A DNA stretch of 22,034 nucleotides, taken from a virus. The stretch's first letter is position 1; each line of letters opens with the position of its first letter. This document shows, piece after piece, positions 1,975-22,034 of the stretch. The position numbers and the translations under genes were made by a program. The notes under the pieces were generated by a model. The model made no database searches and had not been told where the DNA came from. It saw only the letters and a program-made list of their open reading frames with translations. The stretch lies in IMG/VR virus record IMGVR_UViG_3300006614_000008, positions 3,025 to 25,058 of that record; one strand, written 5' to 3'.

Positions 1975-2306
1975 ATATTTGGCTAGCTATCTGGGCGATA
2001 CTGGACTTCGCTTCAGTGAATCATGAACCACCTAACCCTGAGATCCCTGAGGTTGTGTGCGAATACTTCCAAGAGGATTGTGTTCGTGCCCTCGGGGTGG
2101 CGTGGTGTGAGTCATTGCATAACCCTCGTGCTTATAACGGGGTAGATCATGGCTTGTTCCAGATCAATGAGCATTACTGGGGTGATGTCTTTGAGAAGCA
2201 TTGGCATAAGCGTTATGAGATTGTTCAGTCAACATGGATGGCTCATTACATACATGAGAACACTCGTGGGGGCTGGGCTTTGTGGACTTGTGGGAGGTAC
2301 AAGTGA
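1971..2306 (+). CDS. Lysozyme-like / lytic transglycosylase-type protein, 111 aa
   Basis: The core has the features of small goose-lysozyme-like and SLT-type transglycosylase folds: a likely catalytic Glu in A-W-C-E-S (E47), then N-P-R-A-Y-N, then D-H-G-L-F-Q-I-N (residues 59-66), and an end with G-W-A-L-W-T-C-G, close to the 'W..W.C' ending of this group. Four cysteines (C30, C37, C46, C107) could form disulfides, which fits a protein acting outside the cytoplasm. The first 16 residues (MNIWLAIWAILDFASV) are hydrophobic and could be a short signal or anchor. It would cleave the glycan strand of peptidoglycan. It lies among early genes, far from the holin and amidase, so it may be a second lysin, a virion-associated lysozyme or a protein with another role. 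The start overlaps the previous stop (ATGA). Confidence 0.68.
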   Translation: MNIWLAIWAILDFASVNHEPPNPEIPEVVCEYFQEDCVRALGVAWCESLHNPRAYNGVDHGLFQINEHYWGDVFEKHWHKRYEIVQSTWMAHYIHENTRGGWALWTCGRYK

Positions 2307-3031
2307 CAACCAAAACATGCTCAAAGTGCGAAGAAACTAAACCAATCACGAGCTATCACAAAAAGCCCAATGGCAAGTATGGCGTCAATTCTGTATGTAA
2401 GCCATGTGCTATTGCTAAAACAGTAGCTCGCCGACAAGAAAAACATAAAGACCCAAAAGTTAAAGCGGAGTTTCTAGCTCAGCGAAGGCAATACTACAAA
2501 GAGAACAAACACCGAGAAGATCTGAGTTGTAGTAAGACTTCTAGAGCCGAATTCTATAAAGCTAATCGGAAAAAACTATTAGCTAGGGTAAAAGAGTACC
2601 AATCAAGACCAGAGGTAAAAAAGAAAATACAAGAGCGAAAGAGGCAAAAATACCTTGATGACAGAGATGTTGTTCTGGAACAGAGTCGCCAGTATCGCAA
2701 AAAAAATTGGGAAAAGGTTAGAGCAAGGGAGAACCTTAAAACACTACGCAGAAAAGCTATAGAGTCTGACGGTCACAACCTAGCGAAGCTACACGCTTAC
2801 TGGAGAGCTAACGGCATAGACCCTAAGCGGTGTACTTACTGTGATGCTTGGCATACCAAGTGGAAGAACAACTGGAAAACCTCAGCAGGTGACCATGTGG
2901 TTCCGCTTTCAAAGGGAGGCAAAGACTTTATAGAGAACCTCGTTCCTTGTTGTTTCTCTTGTAACTCTTCCAAAGGAGCCAAGATTCTTTACGAAGAATG
3001 GGTACCACCTAAAGAACGGAAAGCAAGTTAA
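2303..3031 (+). CDS. HNH endonuclease with N-terminal zinc ribbon
   Basis: The start is GTG at 2303, overlapping the previous stop as GTGA and preceded by GGGAGG; an ATG at 2282 without a good site is rejected. The N-terminus carries a zinc-ribbon-like pair, C-S-K-C (C6, C9) and C-K-P-C (C32, C35). The middle, about residues 40-160, is a Lys/Arg-rich helical stretch with repeated Q-Y-x-K-K/E-N-type units. The C-terminal HNH domain has C-T-Y-C, then G-D-H-V-V-P-L-S-K-G-G, then N-L-V-P-C-C-F-S-C-N-x3-K, which supplies the catalytic His and the zinc-binding Cys. It would nick or cut DNA with a single metal ion. The gene looks richer in A than its neighbours, and such free-standing HNH genes often move between phages. 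Its natural target is unknown. Confidence 0.85.
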   Translation: MTTKTCSKCEETKPITSYHKKPNGKYGVNSVCKPCAIAKTVARRQEKHKDPKVKAEFLAQRRQYYKENKHREDLSCSKTSRAEFYKANRKKLLARVKEYQSRPEVKKKIQERKRQKYLDDRDVVLEQSRQYRKKNWEKVRARENLKTLRRKAIESDGHNLAKLHAYWRANGIDPKRCTYCDAWHTKWKNNWKTSAGDHVVPLSKGGKDFIENLVPCCFSCNSSKGAKILYEEWVPPKERKAS

Positions 3032-3639
3032 TGAAACCTAGACAGGGCAGAGGGAGTTGTTGGGCTGTTCTGCCTGACGGCAGTCAATGCCCAAGAGAAC
3101 GCCGCACCATTAAACCCTATGAAGGACCTGGGTCTAAAGATGGAAAGATTGCCCTCTGTCATGGACACAGGGGGCATTTCTTGAAGTACGGGTCACCTCG
3201 TACTGATATTCCTATCAGGTTGCTGTCATCTCTTACCTTTGAGGAACGAGTAGAGGTTTACTTGAATCCTGCTTTTGGTCATGTCAAGTTTGGTGACATT
3301 GTTCGTGATGACGGAACAGTTTGTATCCTTTGGCAAGGCTTCACACAGAATGGTGGATACGGTGCGGTCAACAGCAAGATAATTGCTGAACGAGTTGGCA
3401 CAATCCGCAACGCCTTGACACATCGTATGGTGTGGGTTTACAATAATGGTCCTATTCCAGAAGGACTACAAGTACACCACAACTGTCATGAGAAAAGATG
3501 CTGCAACATCAGGCATTTAGAACTAACTACCGCTGATGCAAACTCACTCGAAGCGAGTACGCATTCAGTTGTCGTTCACCGATTAGAACAAGAAATAAAA
3601 GCCCTAAAGGAGGAGATAAATGAGTTACATCGAAGGTAA
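3031..3639 (+). CDS. HNH endonuclease (HNH_3-like) with N-terminal zinc finger
   Basis: The ATG at 3031 overlaps the previous TAA by one base. The catalytic region is in the second half: L-T-H-R-M-V-W-V-Y-N-N-G-P-I-P-E-G-L (about 129-146), then V-H-H-N-C (149-152), then C-C-N-I-R-H-L-E-L (157-165). This is the pattern of the HNH_3 group found in phages, where the double His and the Asn form the beta-beta-alpha-metal site. The first 55 residues have C10, C20, C43 and His 44, 46 and 49, with L-K-Y-G-S-P after them, a small zinc finger often fused to these nucleases. The last 25 residues (from VVHRLEQEIKALKEEINEL) look like a short coiled coil. Two different HNH genes side by side is unusual; they do not look like recent copies of each other. 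Confidence 0.85.
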   Translation: MKPRQGRGSCWAVLPDGSQCPRERRTIKPYEGPGSKDGKIALCHGHRGHFLKYGSPRTDIPIRLLSSLTFEERVEVYLNPAFGHVKFGDIVRDDGTVCILWQGFTQNGGYGAVNSKIIAERVGTIRNALTHRMVWVYNNGPIPEGLQVHHNCHEKRCCNIRHLELTTADANSLEASTHSVVVHRLEQEIKALKEEINELHRR

Positions 3640-11176: not shown

Positions 11177-14100
11177 CTAGACCTTGCGGAATTCTATATC
11201 TTTCTTATTGCGAAGCTCTTCAGCTAATTCTTTTTGCATACGAATTAGCTCGCTACGTTTCGTAGAAGGAGTATTAGGACGAATGTTCGTACCTAAGAAC
11301 ACCGAAAGCCAAGTAGTTATTGCTCGTTCTTGTTTAGGAGCTTCATTAGGAAGAACCCTTCGCACCCTATTTAACACTGGCATGAACTGATCTAACACAT
11401 AAAGAGTTTGGTCAGTTGTTTTCCATTCCCCTTTACGATTCTTCTTCGCAAAGCCAAACGCACCAAGGGCTGGCATAAGCCCAGGAATTTTTCCATAACT
11501 AGGAGATTGTTGGTATCGACCAGTGAATGGGATATTGCCAAAATATTTTTTGCCAAACGCAAGCTCTATCGGGAGCTTGTACAACGGGAAAACACTTTCC
11601 GCTAAAGGTCGCCACGGTTCTCTACCTTCAATAGCTTTAGACCATTTAGCAAGATCACGGAACGGCAAATCAGGAAGAGCATACGCTCTGTTCCCACCAA
11701 TATTGAAGGGCAAACGTATACCCATATTCTCTCCGAACCAGCTAGGCACTAGCCCTTCTTCAGGAGAATGCAACTCTAACTCGCCTTTAATCTGCTGCAA
11801 CCGACCCCAAGCCGTAGGTTTCTTACCAATCGACTCGACAAGCACAGGCAAAATGTTTTTCTGCCAAGTCCAGAACGGAATAACCTGCTTCATTTTGCGT
11901 TCAGCTTGAGTCAGATTCGCATAATCAAAGTGATACTTATTTACAAGCTCGAAAGCATCATCAATACTTCCACCAGTCATAGCAGTGTGATGCGCTACTG
12001 AACCACGCAACATAAACTCAGCTTCTTGGTTCAACTTACGAACCGCAGCAAACGGAACAAACTCAGCTTTGAACGGGTTAAAGGTTCTTTGACCGCCACC
12101 AATAGCATCCAACGAAGATCTAACTTCCTGAGACACCTGACCACTGCTAGCCATACCAGTCCGATACCACGTCAAAAACGTTTCAAGCTCACCCACATCA
12201 ACCGCAGACTGAGCCTGTGGAATACCCCACTTCTTCAAACCAACAGGTTTCCCGTTAGCAATAAGCTGTTCCAAACCGTAAGCAATATCACCTTTACGGC
12301 CACCCTCTTCAGCAGCCTTAGCTGCAGCACGACGGATACCCAAAACCCTTGTGTGCATACTCATAGGCACATCAGCAATCTGGTTGTTAATCCACATGCC
12401 GCCCATCATGTTTCTCATAATGAACCCAGGAGTAGCAACAGCTTGAGCTTTCCACCAGTTCACAAACGATGAGTACTTCTTCATGAAGTCACTCATCGCT
12501 TTAACATCAGCGGTTCTAGCAGCAGCCTGAACCGCAGCAGAAAACAGTTCAACCGAACTTTCTCCTGCCCCGTCAACAAGACTGTATCCACGCAACAAAT
12601 TGTTTGTTCTATTGGATACATCCTGAACGTTGCCAAGCCCCGACATATTGACCATGTAATCGTTTAACCGACCACCATAAACATCTGACAAATTGTGAAG
12701 GTTGCGTACTTTACGAAGCTCATTAGCAGCAGCTTGCTGCGAATCAGCAGCACTTATTCGAGCAGTTGTTTTATCCGAATCCATCAACCGCATCTTCTCT
12801 AATTTTAATTCGTCAATGATTCTTTGTTGCTGAACCATTGTTGCGCTGACTTCAGACAACTCACTTTCAGTGAGTTGTTTCTTTCCTCGCCAGTAAGTAC
12901 GTCGCTCCGCTAAATAAGCTTCTGTTTCCAAAAGCTTCTTCTGAGCACTGTTCATAGCTATTTCAAGCTCTTCAAACTTTGCGCCAAGAAGATCAAACGT
13001 TTCTTGCAAAGCTTCAGTTGCTTCATCAGAAACCTGACCCGCTAATGGTTTATAAGGAACACCTCTATCAGCCTTTAAGCCAAGTCTTAAAATTTCTTCT
13101 ATCTCACGCAACTTCGCATTCAACAACCTGCGTTCCGCCCCACCTATATCAGACAAAAGCTCAGCAATATTGTTACCTATAGGAGACTTCCCATCGATCA
13201 AAGCATCAGCGCCCTTGATCTCCCTGTAACGCTCAAGACGAGCAAGAATCCCCATGTCTCCTTCATCAAGATTCTCAATAGCGTTCTTAAGATCCGCCAA
13301 TTCAGGCATCTCTTCCAGCCACTTCTCCCACTTAGGATTACCCTTAAAGATCTGACCCAACCGTCTAGAAATCCGACCAAGCTCATCTTTACGAGCAGCA
13401 CTTATAAGTCGCTTACCGTTCTTAGCGAAATCAAACAAGCCATCGCCTGTCATCCCATTTAAGAAATCTTCTAAATCGTCAGCAGCACGAACCGTAACGT
13501 CATCCAACATGCGGTTAATAAACGTGGACTTATATGCACGCAAACCCTCGCGCATAATATTCACTGAATCTTGGATCTCTTTATAACCATCAAACAAAGG
13601 CAAAAACCCTTGAAGCTCAGGATCAATATTGTTGACAGCTTCAATGCGTTTAAGCATCTCTTCAACCTGAGCAATCTGCTCATCTAAAGAATGAATCAAC
13701 TCGACAGCATCATTACGAGCATTATGTAAACGAGCAACTTCCTCAGAAGTTTGCTTCACTTTCTGACTTATGTATCCAACACCTCTACGAAGATCAAACT
13801 GAGCGCCAGGTTGGATAAGAGCCAAAGCATCATTAGTCAAACCCTCGATCCCTGAACCATTAGCTATAGCGTCCATAACAGAAGAAATAGCTCTTAGCTC
13901 TCCTTCAAGTCTGGCTACTTCAAGAGCAGCTTTAGTAGCTGCTCGTTGACTTGTCTTACTTCCAGCCTTACCAGCCTCACCCGTGTAAAAAGCAATCTTT
14001 TCATCACGAGCAGTCTTAGTAGCTTCTAACCTATCTTTAAGTATTTGGGCATTACTAAGTTTCTTACCTGCTCTATTCATCGCAGATGTCAAACGATTAG

Positions 14101-16102
14101 CAGCCGCACGACTCAACTGACCATTAGCGCCACGAACAATAATCCCACGTTGCGCTAAACCATCAACAACATACTGAGAACGAATGTAACGAGAATGAGA
14201 ATCTATATAGCTCGTCAAAGCTTTAGTCATATCCGTATCGAATATGTCAACCCACTCGCTACCGTGAGCTTCTTTGCCCATTCTTGAAAGCTGATCTCTA
14301 ATAGAGCCAGCTTCAATATCTTTTAACGTTCCAACATGCGTTTTGTTGGTGTATACATGCCCGTCTGTACCAGTAACTCTGAAACCATCGTCAGCCGCAT
14401 CGTCAATAGCGTCCAACAAAGCATCTCTTAACCTGTCGCCAGTTAGAGAAGGATCAACACCTAGGTCATCAATCAGCTTCTCGATACTAATATCAGGCTT
14501 TACACCTGGCTTTAAGTTCTCCCTAATAAGATCTTTCATTCCCTTAGGCGTAATCCAATTACGCCGATGAAAAGAATTACCCTGAATCATGTCATCAGCA
14601 GCAACACCCTGCGGCAACGGCTTGCCACGCAAACGACCAAGCTCATCAAGCTTTTCTGCGCCTTCCTTACCGATATAACGCATCAAATAAAGCTCACCAA
14701 CAACGCCATCTAAATCGTCGCTGTACGGCAAAGCCTCATTAACCATCGTCCGCAAACTGTCCAAATACTCCCGAGCCTGTGCCCTTAAAGCCACATGCTT
14801 AGGGCTAAGACCAAAGTCACTACCCTGCGAAACAAGGTAAGGAACCTCATTCTCGGCAGCCAACATCAACTCGTCAAAATCAACACCAGCATCATCAGCG
14901 GCACGTTTAAGATTCTCTGCCCCCTGCTTTGCTGTCGCAGCAAACGCAGACGACCTCGTATTAGCTTGCGAACCAACACGCTGAACCCAACGACCAGTAA
15001 CCTGTTCCTCTATATTGCTAGAACGAATCATTTTGTTGATATCAACGTTCGTTGAAAACGCTTTACCAAACGCCTGACCCAGCTTTGTATCCGAAGAAGC
15101 TGCGAATGCTTTGCCAGGAGCAGAAGCAGTCCAAGCAACAAAAGCAGTACTCCCTGGAATCTTCGCTAACATCTGAGCACTCCCAGGCATCTCGACTGCC
15201 ATCTTCATAGCCAGTCTCGCTGCTTTATCAGCCTCAGAACCAGTCTTCACAGCAACAGCAGGTCCCTCACCTCGCAACTGCCGAACCCTATTCCTAACAA
15301 GCTTCTGATTATTAGGATTAGTTAAATCAAGAGCACGATCCGCTTCATCACCCCACCGAAACATGCCACCAGGACCAGCAGCAGTATCGGTATACAACTG
15401 CCTGACACGCATGTCATCTAACTTCCTGCCAACAACAGGAAATATCCTTCGTAACGGCTTCTCAATAATCGTGCGACCAATCTTGCCAGTCCCAGGAATC
15501 GTGAAACGAGCACCAGACGAAATACCTACGTCGTCCAAATATTTACCTGCAGACAACACAGACTTAGTGCGATCAACTCTTTGTGCAGCCTTCAACATCC
15601 CTGCTGCCTTAGCTGCATCACCAGCAGCTTCAGCAGCTTTAGCACCTTTACGCAAACCATTCGCCACATCAGCAGCCTTAGCGCCACGAGCCAACAGCCC
15701 AGCACCAGCCATATACGTCAAAGGATCTAAAGCAATATCCAACCCAAGACCCACAGCAAAATCCAAAGGCCCAGGAAGATCAACGTCCCAATCCCGCAAC
15801 ACCTCACCCATCATGATGTTGTCACGAGTTTGCTGAACAAATTCCCCAATCGAGAAATCATTATCAGCATCAAAGATGTCACCTATCTCTTTAATACCCG
15901 AAACAATCGCAGCACGAGGCGTATCAATAACATCAATAATTTGCCCAAGGACAGGAATATCAAATATCCCTCCACCCTTTTTTGCAGGAGCAACATACCC
16001 AGGCAAAGGAGCAGAAGAAGAAGACTTATTCCCCCAATCGATCTTCAAATTTTTGATCATATTTCCACGGTCTTGAGGCCGTGGAGGAGGAGGAATCGCC
16101 AC
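11177..16102 (-). CDS. Very large virion protein, probably internal/ejection type, 1641 aa
   Basis: No single family covers the whole protein. The N-terminus is Pro-rich and flexible, then a hydrophobic, Gly/Ala-rich segment at about 112-138 (PLDFAVGLGLDIALDPLTY) that could insert into or cross a membrane, then an Ala-rich helical part. The middle, about 680-1150, has long coiled-coil stretches. Near 1410 is I-P-F-W-T-W-Q-K-N-I-L-P, followed by V-L-V-E-S-I-G-K-K-P, a motif I associate with large phage virion or polyvalent proteins. The size, helical make-up and place as the last and largest of three virion genes before the lysis genes recall T7 gp16. It could instead act as a tape measure. 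The start is GTG at 16102, with AGGGG upstream; a later ATG is possible. Confidence 0.7.
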   Translation of the reverse strand: MAIPPPPRPQDRGNMIKNLKIDWGNKSSSSAPLPGYVAPAKKGGGIFDIPVLGQIIDVIDTPRAAIVSGIKEIGDIFDADNDFSIGEFVQQTRDNIMMGEVLRDWDVDLPGPLDFAVGLGLDIALDPLTYMAGAGLLARGAKAADVANGLRKGAKAAEAAGDAAKAAGMLKAAQRVDRTKSVLSAGKYLDDVGISSGARFTIPGTGKIGRTIIEKPLRRIFPVVGRKLDDMRVRQLYTDTAAGPGGMFRWGDEADRALDLTNPNNQKLVRNRVRQLRGEGPAVAVKTGSEADKAARLAMKMAVEMPGSAQMLAKIPGSTAFVAWTASAPGKAFAASSDTKLGQAFGKAFSTNVDINKMIRSSNIEEQVTGRWVQRVGSQANTRSSAFAATAKQGAENLKRAADDAGVDFDELMLAAENEVPYLVSQGSDFGLSPKHVALRAQAREYLDSLRTMVNEALPYSDDLDGVVGELYLMRYIGKEGAEKLDELGRLRGKPLPQGVAADDMIQGNSFHRRNWITPKGMKDLIRENLKPGVKPDISIEKLIDDLGVDPSLTGDRLRDALLDAIDDAADDGFRVTGTDGHVYTNKTHVGTLKDIEAGSIRDQLSRMGKEAHGSEWVDIFDTDMTKALTSYIDSHSRYIRSQYVVDGLAQRGIIVRGANGQLSRAAANRLTSAMNRAGKKLSNAQILKDRLEATKTARDEKIAFYTGEAGKAGSKTSQRAATKAALEVARLEGELRAISSVMDAIANGSGIEGLTNDALALIQPGAQFDLRRGVGYISQKVKQTSEEVARLHNARNDAVELIHSLDEQIAQVEEMLKRIEAVNNIDPELQGFLPLFDGYKEIQDSVNIMREGLRAYKSTFINRMLDDVTVRAADDLEDFLNGMTGDGLFDFAKNGKRLISAARKDELGRISRRLGQIFKGNPKWEKWLEEMPELADLKNAIENLDEGDMGILARLERYREIKGADALIDGKSPIGNNIAELLSDIGGAERRLLNAKLREIEEILRLGLKADRGVPYKPLAGQVSDEATEALQETFDLLGAKFEELEIAMNSAQKKLLETEAYLAERRTYWRGKKQLTESELSEVSATMVQQQRIIDELKLEKMRLMDSDKTTARISAADSQQAAANELRKVRNLHNLSDVYGGRLNDYMVNMSGLGNVQDVSNRTNNLLRGYSLVDGAGESSVELFSAAVQAAARTADVKAMSDFMKKYSSFVNWWKAQAVATPGFIMRNMMGGMWINNQIADVPMSMHTRVLGIRRAAAKAAEEGGRKGDIAYGLEQLIANGKPVGLKKWGIPQAQSAVDVGELETFLTWYRTGMASSGQVSQEVRSSLDAIGGGQRTFNPFKAEFVPFAAVRKLNQEAEFMLRGSVAHHTAMTGGSIDDAFELVNKYHFDYANLTQAERKMKQVIPFWTWQKNILPVLVESIGKKPTAWGRLQQIKGELELHSPEEGLVPSWFGENMGIRLPFNIGGNRAYALPDLPFRDLAKWSKAIEGREPWRPLAESVFPLYKLPIELAFGKKYFGNIPFTGRYQQSPSYGKIPGLMPALGAFGFAKKNRKGEWKTTDQTLYVLDQFMPVLNRVRRVLPNEAPKQERAITTWLSVFLGTNIRPNTPSTKRSELIRMQKELAEELRNKKDIEFRKV

Positions 16103-16110
16103 CTTAACCC

Positions 16111-17640
16111 CTAGCCGTACAAAGCAGCTTGTTCAGCAATTTTCCCAAACTGAATTATTTCATTAAGAGAAGCAGTTCTTTCCCCGTCAGCTAAATGCTT
16201 AAACCCATCAGGAAGCATCTCTGGAGTCAACGTCATAGCCATTCCCTGATCATTGTCTGCTGCAATCTTTGCAAACTCTTTCAACAACCCAGGGAACGTA
16301 GACGAAGCCGCAGCCGCATCACCAGGCATACCAATAGACTGCCCAATAACCATTGCCCGAGCAGCCTGCGCCCGAGCCTCATTAGCCGCTGCAGCAGAAG
16401 CAGCAGCAGCATCCGCTGCGCTAATACGACGATTCATCAAAGCCTCATTAATATCTTGAAGCTCATACGACAACCGCTGAGAACCCTGGAACAGCATGTC
16501 AGAAGCATTCCGATCAAACGCCCGACGTTCCTTAGCCATCCCAGCCTTAGCACGACCAATACCCAACTGGGCACGTTCAGCACCAAGCATCGCCATACGC
16601 TCAGCCAAATCTGCACCAGACTGCATCTGAGCACCAAGCAAAGCCCCCATCTCTCGACCAACCACATTCGTGTAACCAGCGGGATCAATGCCAAGATTCT
16701 TTAATCTTGCGCTTGCAGCGTCTGTACGAGCGTCAAATTTTCTTTGCAGTTCGTTAAACGATTGGCCTCTACGGGCTGTATACATATCTTCTGCTTGACG
16801 ACGGGAAGCGTCAGAAGCTAAAAGCTGATTAACAATCGCTTCTTCGTCGCTGTCGAACTGGGCACCAGCCCTAGTGCGTTCAGCGTCCAAGAAACTTGTT
16901 AGATCGTTGTAACGTCCTTGAGCGTAACCACGATTAGTGTCTGCTAACTGTTCCGCTAAACCCATACCGTCTTCGGTTTGTGCACCTGCAGGAAACATTT
17001 GGTCAAACAAAGCCTGCATTCGAGCAGCTTCTTGTTCTTCAAAATTTCTTATAGCTTTTTCGTACTCTGGTCTTCCTGGCCCATACATTTCACCGTCAGC
17101 GTCAGGAGAAGAACTTTTGCTGCTCCCTCCTCTTTCGGGAACTAAAGTGCCTGCTTCTTTACGAGCAATAGCATTTCTCAAAGCTTCCAAAGTCGAGTTA
17201 TCAGTATCCCCCGAGCCATACGGACTATAAGCCCCAGACGTAACCTCAGGAGGAACAACAATGTCATTCAAACGATTAATCTGACCAGTTGTCAAGTAAT
17301 CAGCAAGAGCTTCTTTCTCTGCTGCACTTGGATCTTTCTTCTTCATCAACATTTGGATGTAATCATTATCTGAAAGATTCAAATTACTTAAAGCAGGATT
17401 TTCTAAAGGGGGCTCAGAACCACTCGGAATATTTATGTTGCTTAAAGCGTTATTGACACCACGAACATTGCGAGCAACTGTCCCTGCAGGACTAGTAACC
17501 AAAGACTGAACAGCGTTACCAACAGGACTAAGAGCACCTTTTAACGCTCTGTCCATATCAGCTAAAGCTTGAGCTTCGCTACTCGCAGGCCCAAGATTCT
17601 GACCAGTTAGCCTATTCTTACGTTGCAACGGTTGATTCAC
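16111..17640 (-). CDS. Ala-rich helical virion protein, possibly internal/ejection type, 509 aa
   Basis: The start is GTG at 17640, preceded by AGGAG. The first 200 residues are low-complexity and flexible (Asn, Ser, Pro, Gly), with a Ser/Gly-rich stretch (ERGGSSKSSSPDADG). From about 200 to 435 the protein is nearly all helix, rich in Ala, Glu, Arg and Gln, with an extreme Ala-rich part (R-I-S-A-A-D-A-A-A-A-S-A-A-A-A-N-E-A). It ends with a compact segment (DGFKHLADGERTASLNEIIQ). It has no enzyme motif. Its place between the 270- and 1641-residue proteins and its helical content fit the middle protein of an ejection complex, like T7 gp15 in position only. It could also be a scaffold or tail protein. 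Confidence 0.6.
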   Translation of the reverse strand: MNQPLQRKNRLTGQNLGPASSEAQALADMDRALKGALSPVGNAVQSLVTSPAGTVARNVRGVNNALSNINIPSGSEPPLENPALSNLNLSDNDYIQMLMKKKDPSAAEKEALADYLTTGQINRLNDIVVPPEVTSGAYSPYGSGDTDNSTLEALRNAIARKEAGTLVPERGGSSKSSSPDADGEMYGPGRPEYEKAIRNFEEQEAARMQALFDQMFPAGAQTEDGMGLAEQLADTNRGYAQGRYNDLTSFLDAERTRAGAQFDSDEEAIVNQLLASDASRRQAEDMYTARRGQSFNELQRKFDARTDAASARLKNLGIDPAGYTNVVGREMGALLGAQMQSGADLAERMAMLGAERAQLGIGRAKAGMAKERRAFDRNASDMLFQGSQRLSYELQDINEALMNRRISAADAAAASAAAANEARAQAARAMVIGQSIGMPGDAAAASSTFPGLLKEFAKIAADNDQGMAMTLTPEMLPDGFKHLADGERTASLNEIIQFGKIAEQAALYG

Positions 17641-17648
17641 AATAACTC

Positions 17649-18461
17649 CTAGCCCATAGCCCGAATTTGCTGGGCAATACTCGCCCTCAACTCATTCGGA
17701 TCAGAAATATTTGCTGTATTAGCAGCAACATTCAAAGCATCAGCAATCGCATCAGCATCAACACCACGGTAATACTGCTGCTCCTGAGCCAAATCCCCAC
17801 CAATATCAAGACGCTGAGACTGCAAATCATGCTGACGAAGCATGTCCCCAATCGCCCTCAACTGATCAGACTCATACTCCCCCAGCGTGCGATCCCTAAT
17901 CCCACTATTAACAATGCCACGCTGATTCAACCTGTCCCAAATAGGACGCTCCCCACGAATACGATTCCTCTCGGCTGTATCCAAACCATAAGCTAACTGT
18001 TGACCCAGAAGCTCACGGTTATATTGATTGCCGCTCAAAGCGTCAATCAAATTGAAGTAATACTCATCAGCCGCAGACGTACCAAACGTACCAATATTGG
18101 TATTACCCACAGAAGGCTGTGCGTAATACCCACTCGGATCAGAGGATACAACCGCAGCCCCAGGAGCATTCGTAGAAGCAGCTTGAGACAAAGCCGCCGA
18201 CTCAGGAGTAACTGTCGCCCCTAAAGAAGCAGCGTCGATAGTTGCCCAATCCGCAGTTTTAGGAGTAGGAGTTACCCCAAAAGAACCATGATCGGCAGCA
18301 GCATAACCACTCTGGTTACGTGCTGCCCGAGACTCGGCACGACTAGGGCCACCAACTCCGTACTCTTTACGGTTGTACATGACTTCAGGATTAAGAGTAA
18401 CCCCTCTATTTTTTTTGCTTTTGCCAGGAACTGGCATGTGGTCAAGCAATCTGAAAGCCAT
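17649..18461 (-). CDS. Virion-associated protein, possibly internal/ejection type, 270 aa
   Basis: Not recognised with certainty. The ATG at 18461 has a perfect AGGAGG upstream. The N-terminal half is low in predicted structure (Ala, Ser, Thr, Gly, Pro), while residues from about 130 on are helical with many Gln, Arg and Asp. A part reading R-L-N-Q-R-G-I-V-N-S-G-I-R-D-R-T-L-G-E-Y resembles the 'RGI.NSG' turn in phage internal virion proteins followed by long Q/R/D helices. As the smallest and first of the three virion genes, it sits where T7 gp14 sits. The next gene starts eight bases after its stop. Confidence 0.6.
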   Translation of the reverse strand: MAFRLLDHMPVPGKSKKNRGVTLNPEVMYNRKEYGVGGPSRAESRAARNQSGYAAADHGSFGVTPTPKTADWATIDAASLGATVTPESAALSQAASTNAPGAAVVSSDPSGYYAQPSVGNTNIGTFGTSAADEYYFNLIDALSGNQYNRELLGQQLAYGLDTAERNRIRGERPIWDRLNQRGIVNSGIRDRTLGEYESDQLRAIGDMLRQHDLQSQRLDIGGDLAQEQQYYRGVDADAIADALNVAANTANISDPNELRASIAQQIRAMG

Positions 18462-18475
18462 GATTCCTCCTATAT

Positions 18476-18631
18476 TTAATCTTCAGTCGTCCCACATTTG
18501 TCGCAGTCGCCTGTGCATTGGTTCGCTTCAAGCTGAGCGATATGTACTCGCATCAAAGCGATTTCCCATTCCAACTTTCCGCGCTCACTCAAAGAAGCAA
18601 TAACTTCTTCGATACCTACGTCAGCGCTCAT
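18476..18631 (-). CDS. Small protein with a Cys cluster, 51 aa
   Basis: Translated by hand. The ATG at 18631-18629 overlaps the TGA of the upstream gene (ATGA), and the frame ends with TAA at 18478-18476, two short steps before the AGGAGG of the next gene. The product begins MSADVGIEEVIASLSERGKL and has one long helix of coiled-coil type (LEWEIALMRVHIAQLEANQ) followed by C-T-G-D-C-D-K-C-G, a C-x3-C-x2-C cluster that may bind a metal. The tight coupling on both sides argues for a real gene. A virion or chaperone role is possible from the context only. Confidence 0.6.
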   Translation of the reverse strand: MSADVGIEEVIASLSERGKLEWEIALMRVHIAQLEANQCTGDCDKCGTTED

Positions 18632-18906
18632 GCTGGATCAGAAGCCTCAACATCTGGAGCACCTTCAAGAGGTGGAGGTCCTACAAGAGCGTTAACCTCA
18701 GCTTCGCTTAAACCAAGATCAAGAAGCTTCTGGCGACCAGCAGCAGCATCAGCTTGCTCTTGCGCCATAACAGCAGCCTGCTCTTCAGCAAGAGCAATAT
18801 TCGCATCTCGTTGAGCGTACTCTTCCTCAGTTAGCTCACGTTCTATTGTTTCACCAGTAGCACAATCGTGAATTGTGCACATTATGGGTGGTTCTCTTAA
18901 AGGCAT
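18628..18906 (-). CDS. Small acidic protein, possible tail or assembly accessory, 92 aa
   Basis: Not recognised. The ATG at 18906 has AAGGAA upstream; an internal ATG at residue 9 (MCTIHDCATGE) is less well placed. A short beta part (C-T-I-H-D-C-A-T-G-E-T-I-E-R-E-L-T-E-E-E) is followed by a long Ala/Glu/Gln helix, then L-G-L-S-E-A-E-V-N-A-L-V-G and a Pro/Glu-rich end. The 'ATGETIERELTEEE' start resembles small phage proteins encoded beside tail fibre genes, some of which assist assembly. The gene is between the appendage proteins and the virion trio. Confidence 0.6.
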   Translation of the reverse strand: MPLREPPIMCTIHDCATGETIERELTEEEYAQRDANIALAEEQAAVMAQEQADAAAGRQKLLDLGLSEAEVNALVGPPPLEGAPDVEASDPA

Positions 18907-18915
18907 ATCGATTCC

Positions 18916-19629
18916 TTATTCATTAACTTGCAAGTTTCCATTACAACCTCTAAACACAAAGAAATCTCCAATAAAATTGTAGGCAGATCCAATAGTTACA
19001 GTGTTTATGGCAGCGCCAGCGCTGCAACCCCCAGCACCTATGCCCCAAGCACCCCAATCAGCGGTAGCAGCAGCAGCAGAATTATCCATTTGTTGATCAG
19101 TTACCATCCCAACGTGATAATGCCACGGATAATAACCATTTTGGTTTGGGAAATGATTTTCAAACCATCCCGTAACCCATGCTGCACGGCGACGGGAAGT
19201 GGGAGGAACCGAGTTTCCATCAATATCGGTTACAGTTATTCCCCAGTTATAGTTAGTAAACTGTGATCCTCCAACTGCATAACCAAGTTGTTGATTACCT
19301 GTGCTATAGGTGTAGTCACGACTTGTGCTTGACCATGAATATGGACTCATCGAAGTAACATTTTGTGCGCTCTGGTAATCGTATACAAAGTCGTTACTGT
19401 TGGTGTATGGGCCGTGGAAATACATATTGCTGCTACCTACAACATTTGCGCTAGTTTGAAGCTGCAATTTGAACACAATACGGTAAACAGGAGCGTTAGA
19501 GTAATCAAGTATGGTTTGGTTACCAGCAGCGTTGGTTGCATAAACGTTATTAAGACCTGAAAAAGTTATTGAAGAAGTCGCATTGTTCTGGGCGATATGG
19601 GTTTCAAGAACCCAAGGTTGGTCAGCCAT
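18916..19629 (-). CDS. Beta-rich tail appendage protein, third of a tandem set, 237 aa
   Basis: The product is rich in Ser, Thr, Asn, Gly and Tyr with few charges, as in phage receptor-binding or appendage proteins made of beta sheets. It shares a plan with the two genes upstream: an N-terminal strand with S-S-I-T-F-S-G-L-N-N, then V-Y-R-I-V-F-K, a long variable centre, and a final pair of strands I-N-T-V-T-I-G-S-A-Y then F-I-G-D-F-F-V-F-R-G. The centre is rich in Tyr, Ser and Asn (residues 70-110), where receptor contact might occur. The start is ATG at 19629, two bases after the upstream stop, without a strong ribosome-binding site, so it probably depends on coupling. Confidence 0.65.
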   Translation of the reverse strand: MADQPWVLETHIAQNNATSSITFSGLNNVYATNAAGNQTILDYSNAPVYRIVFKLQLQTSANVVGSSNMYFHGPYTNSNDFVYDYQSAQNVTSMSPYSWSSTSRDYTYSTGNQQLGYAVGGSQFTNYNWGITVTDIDGNSVPPTSRRRAAWVTGWFENHFPNQNGYYPWHYHVGMVTDQQMDNSAAAATADWGAWGIGAGGCSAGAAINTVTIGSAYNFIGDFFVFRGCNGNLQVNE

Positions 19630-19631
19630 AA

Positions 19632-20333
19632 TTAAGTCCAGTCATTATTTCTTTGGACTTGATCAGTCCAACCCTCACCGTAAACAGTCAAACTTGAATA
19701 AATACCCAAAGTTTTAGGTGTGCCAGCAGAATCCCAACCTGCTCCTATCCGAATGCTGTTCATAGGCGACATTGCTACTGCCGCTGAAGCAGAATTTTGG
19801 GCATCTAACTTTGTGCATCCACTCCAACCAGAACCAGAATAAGGCGTGCCTTGCGTAGACGAGTATGGGCTCGTTCCGCTGCCTTTCCAAAAGATTTGTT
19901 TTGACTGGTTGTTTCCAGGCTGCACAACTATGCCTTCTATGGTGAAACGTTCAGAGAAATCAGAGTTGCCGCTGTGATAATACTGTCTGCCAATTTCCCC
20001 ATAAGGAGTCACCGAATAACTCTGGTGTGCACAGCCAATGGCGGTCTGCCAGTAAGTAGAATCTGACCTCTGGTGACACTGCATGTTTCTGTATTTCATA
20101 GCAGAAGCGTTAGGACCTCCAGTCCAAGCGCCTTGCATCCCAATACTTACTCCTTGCTGCCATTGACCTGAACCAACATTGGTGGTTCCACCACCAGAAT
20201 GGTCAATCATTCCGTTAAACACGATACGCAACACCGCATAATCGGTAGCGATATTTGTGAGTTCCAGAAACTGTGTAGTTGAATTATTCGTTTCAACAGT
20301 ACCCAACTGATAAAATTTACTCTTAACAGCCAT
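19632..20333 (-). CDS. Beta-rich tail appendage protein, second of a tandem set, 233 aa
   Basis: The shared plan is F-L-E-L-T-N-I, then V-L-R-I-V-F-N-G near residues 34-41, a variable centre with many Gly, Ser, Gln and Trp, and an end M-N-S-I-R-I-G-A-G-W followed by L-G-I-Y-S-S-L-T-V-Y-G-E-G. A short acidic-basic tail (DQVQRNNDWT) follows. The centre has G-G-G-T-T-N-V-G-S-G-Q-W and G-N-S-D-F-S-E-R-F-T-I, typical of jelly-roll loops. It probably forms trimers on the tail or capsid surface. The ATG at 20333 overlaps the upstream TAA by one base (TAATG). Confidence 0.65.
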   Translation of the reverse strand: MAVKSKFYQLGTVETNNSTTQFLELTNIATDYAVLRIVFNGMIDHSGGGTTNVGSGQWQQGVSIGMQGAWTGGPNASAMKYRNMQCHQRSDSTYWQTAIGCAHQSYSVTPYGEIGRQYYHSGNSDFSERFTIEGIVVQPGNNQSKQIFWKGSGTSPYSSTQGTPYSGSGWSGCTKLDAQNSASAAVAMSPMNSIRIGAGWDSAGTPKTLGIYSSLTVYGEGWTDQVQRNNDWT

Positions 20334-20926
20334 TATTTAGGCCTTCTTCCAAAAACAGTAAAACCTTGGTAACTGGAACTTCCATTGCCCCACCCATTTT
20401 GGATATAAATGCTATCTATTGGCTGGCTTACGTTGACAGTTCCACCACCTTGTTGGCACGTAACGTAACTTGTGGCGCTACCGTTTGTGTAACCGCCTCG
20501 ACCATGCCAACTCTTAATATTTGAACTGCTACTAAAGTTCGATAGATAAATAAAATAGCCATGACCATAGCTGCTATAACCATCTGGATAGTTGTAAGCG
20601 TAACTGTTGTTATTTGTGCCTTGGCTCGAACCACTCGAATAACCCGCATAATAGTACGATTGATGCATATTACTGGTTTGCTGGGTTTGCCCTGCGGTAC
20701 CCCAAGTAAATGCCCACCAAGTAGTCCAACTTGACTGGTCACTTGCCTTAAACCAGATTTCTAAATCGTGGTATTTCTGCCCAACAGTGCCATGCAAACC
20801 TGTGATCCAATATTGGCCGTTACCGCTACCCCAAGTAATTGCTTCGCCAAAAGCCACAGGGTTCTGATCTTCCGAAGAAGCAACAGCCCCAAGGCTCATT
20901 CGTGAAGCAGTAGTTACACCAGCCAT
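20333..20926 (-). CDS. Beta-rich tail appendage protein, first of a tandem set, 197 aa
   Basis: The ATG at 20926 overlaps the stop of the upstream gene (TAATG) and gives MAGVTTASRMSLGAV; a start at 20953 would add nine residues inside that gene. The shared plan shows Y-W-I-T-G-L-H, then Y-H-D-L-E-I-W-F-K, a centre extremely rich in Tyr, Ser, Asn and Gly, and the end I-D-S-I-Y-I-Q-N-G-W then Y-Q-G-F-T-V-F-G-R. The centre (about residues 85-130, with SYYYAGYSSG) has a composition like the binding face of adhesins. It is the smallest and closest to the two tropism-determinant-type genes. Confidence 0.65.
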   Translation of the reverse strand: MAGVTTASRMSLGAVASSEDQNPVAFGEAITWGSGNGQYWITGLHGTVGQKYHDLEIWFKASDQSSWTTWWAFTWGTAGQTQQTSNMHQSYYYAGYSSGSSQGTNNNSYAYNYPDGYSSYGHGYFIYLSNFSSSSNIKSWHGRGGYTNGSATSYVTCQQGGGTVNVSQPIDSIYIQNGWGNGSSSYQGFTVFGRRPK

Positions 20927-21405
20927 TAGCTCAGAAGCCCTGCCGCAATCCAAAGATCAGTCGCACACTTCGTCAAAACAGCTTGACCGTACTGACCAGT
21001 AATACCCAACGCACTGTTGTACGAGTAGATGGTTACACCAGCGCCAGCCGTCAAAGTTGTTTGACCTGCACCATATTGGACAACATTGATTGTTGTACCA
21101 ATATCAAAGTTGACGCTTGAACTTGGCGGCACCGTTAAGGTGTTCGCCGCAGCGTTCGTCATCTTAATGAGCTTGCCAGCATCTCCAGCAGTCAACGTAT
21201 AAGCGGTACCTGTCTGCTCATTAATCGTGAATACGTCGGTACCAGCTAGCTGTGCGTAACTTAAAGAGTTCCACGCAGTAGCGCCATCACCGATCTTGTA
21301 CTTGAAACCATCAGTTTCTAAACCTAGTTCCCCGAGACTTAGCGTCGGGTTAGCAGAGGTCCAGTTCGTGCTGGTATCTCGTCGAAGTTGTATCTGTACA
21401 GCCAT
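20926..21405 (-). CDS. Tail fibre-type protein with Mtd-like N-terminal domain, 159 aa
   Basis: The N-terminal 50 residues match the N-terminal domain of major tropism determinant-type tail proteins: A-V-Q-I-Q-L-R-R-D-T then W-T-S-A-N-P-T-L-S-L-G-E-L-G-L-E-T-D and F-K-Y-K-I-G-D-G-A-T-A-W-N-S-L. The rest is a small beta domain that begins Y-T-L-T-A-G-D-A-G-K-L-I and ends W-I-A-A-G-L-L-S, a form common at the end of phage tail proteins. It probably attaches to the virion through the first domain. The ATG at 21405 follows the upstream stop directly, with AAGGA upstream. Confidence 0.78.
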   Translation of the reverse strand: MAVQIQLRRDTSTNWTSANPTLSLGELGLETDGFKYKIGDGATAWNSLSYAQLAGTDVFTINEQTGTAYTLTAGDAGKLIKMTNAAANTLTVPPSSSVNFDIGTTINVVQYGAGQTTLTAGAGVTIYSYNSALGITGQYGQAVLTKCATDLWIAAGLLS

Positions 21406-21708
21406 TTATATTCCTTGTGCGTTTCCACCAGTAGCCGTAGCTCCGATGCCTCCATAGTTAGTTGCCGCTTCGCCACCGTCAAGGTTATTGACAGAAGTTC
21501 CGTGAGGACCTGTCGGTCCCGTGGGACCTCGTAGCCCGCCGTAAGCCAGCGAACTCCAAGCCGTAGTACCGTCACCTATCTTCAAGGTCATGGCTTGTTC
21601 GCCACCACCAGCGTCAGTTTGGATTGCCAGTTCGCCGTCAGCTAAGACGGGATCAGCAGCAACCCACTGAGCGTAGGTTCCTCTACGAAATTGAATCTGA
21701 ATAGGCAC
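21406..21708 (-). CDS. Short tail protein with Mtd-like N-terminal domain and collagen-like stretch, 100 aa
   Basis: The first 60 residues repeat the Mtd-like pattern: I-Q-I-Q-F-R-R-G-T, W-V-A-A-D-P-V-L-A-D-G-E-L-A-I-Q-T-D and L-K-I-G-D-G-T-T-A-W-S-S-L. Then come three G-P-x triplets (R-G-P-T-G-P-T-G-P-H-G) and a Gly/Asn-rich end with N-L-D-G-G-E-A then N-Y-G-G-I. The start is GTG at 21708, sharing one base with the upstream TAG, with GGAGGG upstream. It is likely a tail or fibre component. The same end pattern is found in the upstream gene, which suggests shared ancestry of the C-termini. Confidence 0.75.
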   Translation of the reverse strand: MPIQIQFRRGTYAQWVAADPVLADGELAIQTDAGGGEQAMTLKIGDGTTAWSSLAYGGLRGPTGPTGPHGTSVNNLDGGEAATNYGGIGATATGGNAQGI

Positions 21709-22034
21709 TACGTTGGCCCTCCTGCGTCAATAGGTGTGACGCCTCCATAATCTCCATTTGTATTTGACTCAGCAACACCACCATTTACGGTTCCTGCTGC
21801 TTGACCTGCTGGACCCGTACTTCCCGTGGGGCCCGTGGGCCCTGTCGGCCCAGGGGGCCCTCCAGGTGGACCTAACGGGCCAGTAGGTCCCGTAGGTCCC
21901 GTCGGTCCAAGCGCCCCTTGTGGCCCAATTAAGCTAAATCCAACAGGCCAAACGCCGTTGGCTTTTGGCCCAAAGAAATAGTTATTGGATACATTCAAGT
22001 AAAAGTCGCCGTCTTGACCAGTGACACCTTGTGG
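21708..22034 (-). CDS. Collagen-like tail protein, N-terminal part beyond the window edge
   Basis: The frame is open to the right edge, so the gene is cut at its 5' end. A TTG at 21998 is in frame but not a likely start, because the codons before it read P-Q-G-V-T-G-Q-D-G-D-F-Y-L and continue the protein naturally. The visible part has this 'GxxGxDGDFY' unit, then F-F-G-P-K-A-N-G-V-W-P, L-I-G-P-Q-G, a collagen-like run of Gly-x-y triplets (21804-21926) with one break, and an end with N-G-G-V-A-E then D-Y-G-G-V-T-P-I-D-A-G-G. Such proteins form trimeric shafts on phage tails. The part beyond the window probably carries more triplets or an attachment domain. Confidence 0.78.
   Translation of the reverse strand, partial: PQGVTGQDGDFYLNVSNNYFFGPKANGVWPVGFSLIGPQGALGPTGPTGPTGPLGPPGGPPGPTGPTGPTGSTGPAGQAAGTVNGGVAESNTNGDYGGVTPIDAGGPT
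21804..21926 (-). repeat. Collagen-like Gly-x-y repeat coding segment
   Basis: About 13 Gly-x-y triplets, mostly G-P-T, encoded by GGACC, GGTCC and GGCCC-type codons, with one break at G-P-P-G-G-P-P-G. The break adds one residue to the triplet phase, which in collagen-like shafts would cause a kink. The DNA repeats are similar enough for copy number to change by recombination. Confidence 0.75.

Follow-up and report, generated by a model that had tools for sequence, protein, structure and literature searches.

A cluster of consecutive minus-strand genes in the tail-fibre region of an uncultured virus raises the question whether their products are separate adhesins or parts of a single unit. 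The window analysed here comprises 22,034 nucleotides, bases 3025-25058 of the 25,058-base IMG/VR virus record IMGVR_UViG_3300006614_000008; all coordinates refer to this window. The original prediction took three of the genes for a tandem set of diverged beta-rich appendage proteins, duplicated and then changed fast in their receptor-facing centres, which as several different adhesins on one virion could widen host range. The three open reading frames are real and lie on the minus strand as predicted: s1 (20333-20926, 197 aa), s2 (19632-20333, 233 aa) and s3 (18916-19629, 237 aa), with s1 and s2 each beginning in a TAATG overlap and two bases between s2 and s3. The motifs on which the prediction was built are also all present, with LEIWF in s1 (residues 55-59), LRIVF in s2 (residues 35-39) and YRIVF in s3, together with VFG, VYG and VFRG. 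In the predicted models described below, LEIWF and LRIVF both fall in strand 3, and the VFG of s1 and VYG of s2 both in the last (twelfth) strand. As strings of letters the motifs hold for the trio of the window but not for its relatives, class B s2 and s3 finishing with other residues. Overlooked by the prediction were a fourth gene that is part of the unit, s4 (18628-18906, minus strand, 92 aa), and the exchange of the set as a block.

In relatives that extend further than the window, the gene order is stabilisation-type protein, S74 fibre, collagen-like protein, two Mtd_N proteins, s1, s2, s3, s4, g4, g5, ivp and amidase endolysin, which places the trio inside the tail-fibre region. The S74 fibre is a Peptidase_S74 domain protein encoded upstream of the collagen-like gene, and the stabilisation label derives from an L006 protein that is 27% identical over 98% of its length to an annotated protein of the podovirus record MW202803 (Manatee Spring). 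In the window, the upstream flank consists of mtd2 (20926-21405, minus, 159 aa) and mtd1 (21406-21708, minus, 100 aa), both directly upstream of the trio and both above the curated Pfam score for Mtd_N, and of a collagen-like fibre protein (21708-22034, minus) that is incomplete at the window end and 215 aa long in L001. Downstream, likewise on the minus strand, lie the backbone proteins g4 (17649-18461, 270 aa) and g5 (16111-17640, 509 aa), followed by ivp (11177-16102, 1641 aa), by its place and size a probable internal virion protein. Across complete relatives ivp measures 1611 to 2259 aa; it matches 4 of 50,697 GenBank phage records (E ≤ 0.001), including a weak match to a Microbacterium phage, with no more than 17% of its length covered. 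The ivp of L066 had no Pfam match. L066 (NHIM01000009.1) is a phage contig of this group filed in the marine MAG Acidimicrobiaceae bacterium TMED189 and was the sole cellular link found; it is possibly a weak host hint for the group, beside the Microbacterium phage match of ivp, a binning error being possible as well.

Several further features were recorded in and around the window. A 51-aa open reading frame (18476-18631, minus), absent from lists with a 60-aa floor, starts within the stop codon of s4, carries a C-x3-C-x2-C cysteine cluster, is alike in the window and L005 and by sequence reading lies outside the exchanged block. The collagen-like protein of L001 (L001:2566-3213) matches CBM_5_12 at residues 29-68, just under the curated cut-off. 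A 1082-aa fibre protein, L085:5031-8279, has an Mtd_N-like start and an end resembling residues 68-159 of mtd2, so that the 159-aa mtd2 of the window may represent the two ends of such a fibre minus its shaft. On the plus strand, 2282-3639 holds two adjoining genes with HNH-like endonuclease motifs recognised by eye. A scan for promoters and terminators yielded no more than its own shuffles.

Sequence searches with s1-s3 against Pfam, PHROGs and GenBank phages, and with s3 also against PDB sequences, returned no match of weight, and the trio did not match the Mtd_N domain. Scanned as families, 13 members of s1 gave one weak match in PHROGs, 22 members of s2 none in PHROGs, and 23 members of s3 one weak match in Pfam. 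AlphaFold2 modelled s1 (mean pLDDT 76.5, pTM 0.73) and s2 (mean pLDDT 72.8, pTM 0.76) as beta-sandwiches with 12 strands of at least 3 residues each. Against predicted viral structures (BFVD), s1 had 83 and s2 54 matches at E ≤ 0.001, over most of the protein; 32 were in common among the best 50 of each, and 24 of the top 25 matches of s2 fell in the top 50 of s1. Judged from these common matches rather than from direct superposition, the two modelled proteins share a predicted fold, so that the outcome which would have spoken against the original prediction, unrelated folds, is not seen for s1 and s2; the anticipated likeness of all three is thereby borne out for this pair, s3 being tied to s2 by profile only. 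The viral matches are mostly unnamed and include tail-fibre, Stf-repeat, collagen and glycine-rich proteins; among the matches listed, those at E ≤ 1e-7 reach query TM-scores of 0.43-0.73 and occur in short proteins as well as in long fibre proteins. Adjacent accession numbers among some of them may point to tandem copies elsewhere.

Foldseek found no PDB match for s1 at E ≤ 0.001. On a second look, the PDB structures were led by carbohydrate-related sandwiches, namely the C-terminal part of GH32 enzymes and legume lectins for both s1 and s2, and galectins for s1; the best VIA Z values of 8.2 (s1) and 5.8 (s2) are within the range of common arrangements and may reflect no more than that. Neither sequence nor structure searches matched s1-s3 to any proven receptor-binding protein.

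Whether the three slots descend from one gene was addressed by profile comparison, which with shallow alignments gave no slot-to-slot match and with deeper alignments matched s2 to s3 and, less surely, s1 to s3. The s2-s3 alignment is collinear over 202 columns with both motif strands paired and scores 32.3; none of 150 column shuffles reached this value, the highest scoring 17.6, and 27 natural control comparisons gave 6.2-22.2. In the reverse direction it scores 30.5 over just 50 columns (110 columns with an earlier alignment), and in an earlier run 1 of 100 shuffles scored 130 against a real 35, which is unexplained. The s1-s3 score was 28.8 one way and 16.8 the other (31.9 and 27.5 with the earlier alignment), and the first motif strand is about 4 residues out of register. 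As the s1-s2 score (21.3-22.5) was no better than that of the best control, the link between these two rests on structure. The weak but collinear match thus suggests, at the level of profiles, that s3 is related to s2. Between classes, the same slot was joined at 97% (s2, A-B), 93% (s2, A-C) and 93% (s3, A-B), while s2 B-C, at 2%, and class C s3 stayed unjoined. Because s2 and s3 each find the same slot across classes, the slots seem to predate the A-B split at least, and the proposed duplication, if it took place, is old. Separate recruitment of s1-s3 is possible too, since predicted phage proteins commonly have this fold.

Relatives were collected in scans with s1-s3, with ivp (37 viral loci and one MAG contig), with an s1 alignment (26 loci) and with mtd2 (37 loci); many of the contigs overlap. 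Complete s2 and s3 are present in 25 loci including the window, that is, L066 and 24 others, among them L012 and L047, near-duplicates of L006 and L024. The order s1-s2-s3-s4 is identical in all 25, and no break of order was seen in 50 locus records matching all four profiles, contig duplicates included. Clustering of s2 and s3 gave the pairs c15+c16 in 12 loci (class A, that of the window), c18+c23 in nine (class B), c38+c46 in three (class C) and c38+c75 in one, L011; classes A, B and C are never mixed in their 24 loci. Although its s2 clusters with class C, L011 is just 27-29% identical to that class in s2 and 28-35% in s3, which is why we regard it as a fourth type. Where ivp is present and the sequence reaches far enough upstream, the trio occurs in 12 relatives, counting the window, and eight (L023, L025, L026, L027, L035, L036, L038 and L040) show none of s1-s4 by profile, so that the trio appears typical of a subgroup. 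The mtd2 scan for further trio classes returned only known contigs, two contigs that end inside mtd2 (L083, L084) and 17 distant loci without a trio match (L085-L101).

The predicted pattern of conserved ends around a variable centre describes s1 but not s2 and s3. In class A (11 loci), column identity in the first 20, middle and last 20 columns is 0.77/0.47/0.64 for s1, 0.52/0.49/0.50 for s2 and 0.46/0.38/0.47 for s3; in class B (8 loci), the last 20 columns compare with the middle as 0.74 vs 0.54 (s1), 0.59 vs 0.48 (s2) and 0.67 vs 0.46 (s3). A conserved start in every class, of about 20 N-terminal residues, is found in s1 only. Between the window and L001, dN/dS is 0.44 for s1, 0.42 for s2 and 0.50 for s3, above the 0.04 and 0.23 of the Mtd_N neighbours, yet below 1. 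In s2 and s3, moreover, the variation is spread along the length, and the exchange of the block is the larger change. Of the original observations, then, the reading frames, the motifs and their placement in strands stand, and the general pattern of ends and centre does not. In the place of slot 1, L035:1157-2110 and L011:4866-5540 have in common an N-terminal stretch of about 35 aa, ending KAMSGALNGGFFGG, followed by unrelated sequence, which in L035 is rich in glycine, as if domains had been replaced behind a docking segment that stays fixed.

The exchange is most apparent where backbones are nearly identical. Between the window and L005, the upstream proteins are 97% (collagen-like), 99% (mtd1) and 91% (mtd2) identical and the downstream proteins 97% (g4), 90% (g5), 97% (ivp) and 100% (endolysin), against 38% for s1, 29% for s2, 28% for s3 and 49% for s4; L004 and L006 show the same pattern against the window. 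Different cassettes are thus found on backbones 95-98% identical, as also in L029 and L028 (ivp 98%, s1/s2/s3 31/26/29%); for L066 and L020 the values are 93% for ivp and 48/43/38% for the trio. Conversely, L020 and L029 are 40% identical in ivp, yet 91% in s1, 97% in s2, 89% in s3 and 98% in s4, and the window and L066 are 43% identical in ivp and 68/77/72/75% in s1/s2/s3/s4. L004 and L005 are alike in both backbone (97%) and cassette (86/90/81/98%). Averaged across classes, identity is 34% for s1, 26% for s2, 26% for s3 and 43% for s4, and in the flanks 66% for the S74 fibre (48-95%, 15 loci), 80% for the collagen-like protein, 86% for mtd1 and 78% for mtd2. The S74 fibre was also considered as the swapped specificity gene and rejected, as it varies much less and is 93% alike in L001 and L006 despite their different trio classes.

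Pairwise distances, for which each locus was used only for its full-length genes, were calculated without L012 and L047, which duplicate or nearly duplicate L006 and L024, and without the incomplete L048, L050 and L053; L060, which holds one Mtd_N gene, was left out of the mtd comparisons and of the correlation within class B (7 of 8 loci used). Distances correlate at 0.85-0.94 among s1-s4 (23 loci) and at 0.88-0.96 among g4, g5 and ivp (12-17 loci), and at -0.05 to 0.09 between the two groups (12-19 loci). Upstream, the correlation with s1-s4 is 0.19-0.31 for the S74 fibre (15 loci) and a moderate 0.28-0.54 for mtd2 (22 loci), which makes the upstream border a soft one. Within classes, s1-s4 correlate at 0.83-0.97 (class A, 11 loci) and 0.97-0.99 (class B, 7 loci). 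One locus is discordant: the s1 of L054 is 84% identical to L006 and 83% to L058, whereas its s2 and s4 are 92 and 95% identical to L058 against 79 and 76% to L006, so that its s1 may have moved separately from s2-s4.

Borders were located from the DNA similarity of the window to L004, L005 and L006, which ends 69-70 bases into s1 (about 20857) and resumes in the 3' part of s4, being strong against L005 from the s4 stop codon (18628) onward; the exchanged cassette thus spans 18628-20860 on the minus strand. Against L013, also of class A, the similarity ends about 58 bases into s1 and resumes at the end of s3.

The product of the fourth gene of the block, s4, is rich in Ala, Glu and Gln in its middle part, which looks helical by eye, and carries the conserved motif KLxxLGLxxxE at its C-terminus. 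Among 19 members scanned against Pfam and PHROGs, none had a confident family match. The best PHROGs are families without function, phrog_16771 (E 0.00062, 2/19 members) and phrog_10171 (E 0.0037, 7/19), and the best Pfam family is DUF7543 (E 0.0034, 2/19); an Rz-like spanin PHROG (E 0.0025, 2/19) matched more strongly than the families named tail assembly chaperone (E 0.056 and 0.18, each in 1/19). Co-inherited with the trio, s4 is proposed to be a matched small partner that would most likely act as an assembly chaperone or connector.

Taken together, we consider it probable that s1-s4 are a host-recognition cassette exchanged as one piece, with lectin-like proteins for the tip and a small partner matched to them; the discordant s1 of L054 and the relatives without the trio lower our confidence slightly. 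This reading is carried by the co-occurrence, order and co-inheritance of the four genes, their uncoupling from the downstream genes, the borders against near backbones and the predicted fold of s1 and s2; the location on the virion, receptor binding, a physical complex, the s3 fold and the function of s4 are inferred. The carrier would be a short-tailed marine phage in which s1-s3, as lectin-like beta-sandwich proteins, sit at or near the end of a tail-fibre assembly made of the S74 fibre, the collagen-like protein and the two Mtd_N proteins. The conserved start of s1 would dock to the conserved fibre, s2 and s3 would complete the tip, and s4 would assist as a cassette-matched assembly chaperone or connector. 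Recombination at the conserved borders, the Mtd_N gene and first s1 codons on one side and the 3' end of s4 on the other, would exchange the whole block, changing the receptor and keeping the rest of the particle. In a stricter form, s1-s3 would be paralogues that make up an obligate three-part lectin tip, one heteromeric receptor-binding head on a conserved fibre, with s4 as cassette-specific helper and the whole swapped between very different backbones; this we put forward tentatively, at somewhat below even odds.

That s1-s4 mostly travel together, while the downstream border is crossed freely, suggests that they work together, with the caveat that crossovers between classes may be deterred simply by the low similarity within the block. 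This also speaks for three independent adhesins, each with its own receptor, that co-travel merely as neighbours: s1 and s2 have one predicted fold with almost no sequence in common, and with divergence so strong as to limit recombination within the block, linkage would need no common function; the s1 of L054 points the same way. Against it, classes A, B and C remain unmixed, and s1-s4 stay correlated within classes (0.83-0.99), where 23 pairs have s2 65-97% alike and internal exchange should be possible. The outer neighbours are no farther off than the inner ones, mtd2 overlapping s1 and g4 lying 167 bases from s4, and yet g4 is uncoupled. The within-class correlations weaken the caveat of low similarity without removing it, and L054 may be a case of internal exchange. 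The probabilities overlap, a block swap being conceivable for independent adhesins too, but we regard these as unlikely; the cassette probably acts as one unit, more like one composite adhesin than the several that were to widen host range. Of the original interpretation, the common fold persists for s1 and s2, and the independence of the adhesins is not favoured.

Jelly-roll-like folds also occur in decoration proteins, so s1-s3 might instead decorate the capsid or form head fibres, in which case their exchange would serve stability or adherence to surfaces and not the choice of receptor. Their genes, however, are flanked on one side by those for the S74 fibre and the stabilisation-type, collagen-like and Mtd_N proteins and on the other by the large downstream genes, and the viral structure matches of s1 and s2 include tail-fibre names, which leaves this explanation quite improbable. 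Marginally less credence still is given to at least one of s1-s3 being a chaperone-like or fibre-capping protein for the S74 or collagen fibre. It has a model in the Alteromonas phages, which, in the available text on them, share modules of fibre and cognate chaperone whose chaperones may cap fibres (PMC10579305); a fibre-specific chaperone should track its fibre, whereas the S74 fibre correlates with s1-s3 at 0.19-0.30 and is not co-swapped, as the likeness of L001 and L006 illustrates. The Mtd_N domain of both upstream genes, known from the classic target protein of a diversity-generating retroelement, might suggest that the trio are targets of such an element. This is very improbable: the substitutions between the window and L001, one genome pair, are not biased towards adenine (42-50% involve A and 49-61% C), the rest of the window contains nothing that nearly repeats the trio at E ≤ 0.1, and the likeness to Mtd is confined to the short domain, with no retroelement signature in the window.

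If the cassette reading holds, it singles out the probable determinants of host choice in a group of uncultured marine phages, the obvious candidate, the S74 fibre, varying much less, and it makes a common phage fold, known mostly from unnamed proteins, a candidate for receptor binding. Near-identical backbones with different cassettes constitute a natural test of whether receptor choice is made by one protein or by a co-adapted set; were the three-part tip true, host range would depend on how three co-adapted sandwich proteins are combined and not on a homotrimeric fibre tip.

Proteins with the same predicted fold as s1 and s2 include the unnamed beta-sandwich proteins A0A6J7WWM7, A0A1P8DJB1 and O80217 of Methanobacterium phage psiM2; identity to s1 and s2 is 8-21% among the BFVD matches listed, most of them unnamed. 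For the exchange as such, the closest precedents are the metaviromic islands of marine phages, in which host-recognition genes are overrepresented (Mizuno et al., 2014; PMC3909814). As far as that report's available text describes them, they form variable blocks on near-identical backbones, like those of the window against L004, L005 and L006 and of L029 against L028; near-same blocks on diverged backbones occur here as well, in L020 and L029 and in the window and L066. In that same text the islands are defined by read recruitment and the varying parts are the tail-fibre C-terminus and C1q proteins (PMC3909814), whereas here a four-gene block is swapped with the S74 fibre kept more alike, and borders and co-inheritance were measured on contigs, not reads. 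In Alteromonas phages A5, V22 and P24, a host-recognition module of tail fibre and cognate chaperone is described from distantly related phages (PMC10579305). According to the portion of that study available, its AlphaFold models have lectin-like heads, to which the proposed lectin-like tip would correspond, its synteny extends over ten genes and its chaperone is of the DUF4376 family (PMC10579305); the cassette differs in that Pfam gives no confident match for s4 and the core of what is exchanged consists of three stand-alone proteins. Set beside what these sources describe, the present case is of a known kind and differs by stand-alone sandwich proteins as its core, a less variable S74 fibre and a measured linkage of four genes.
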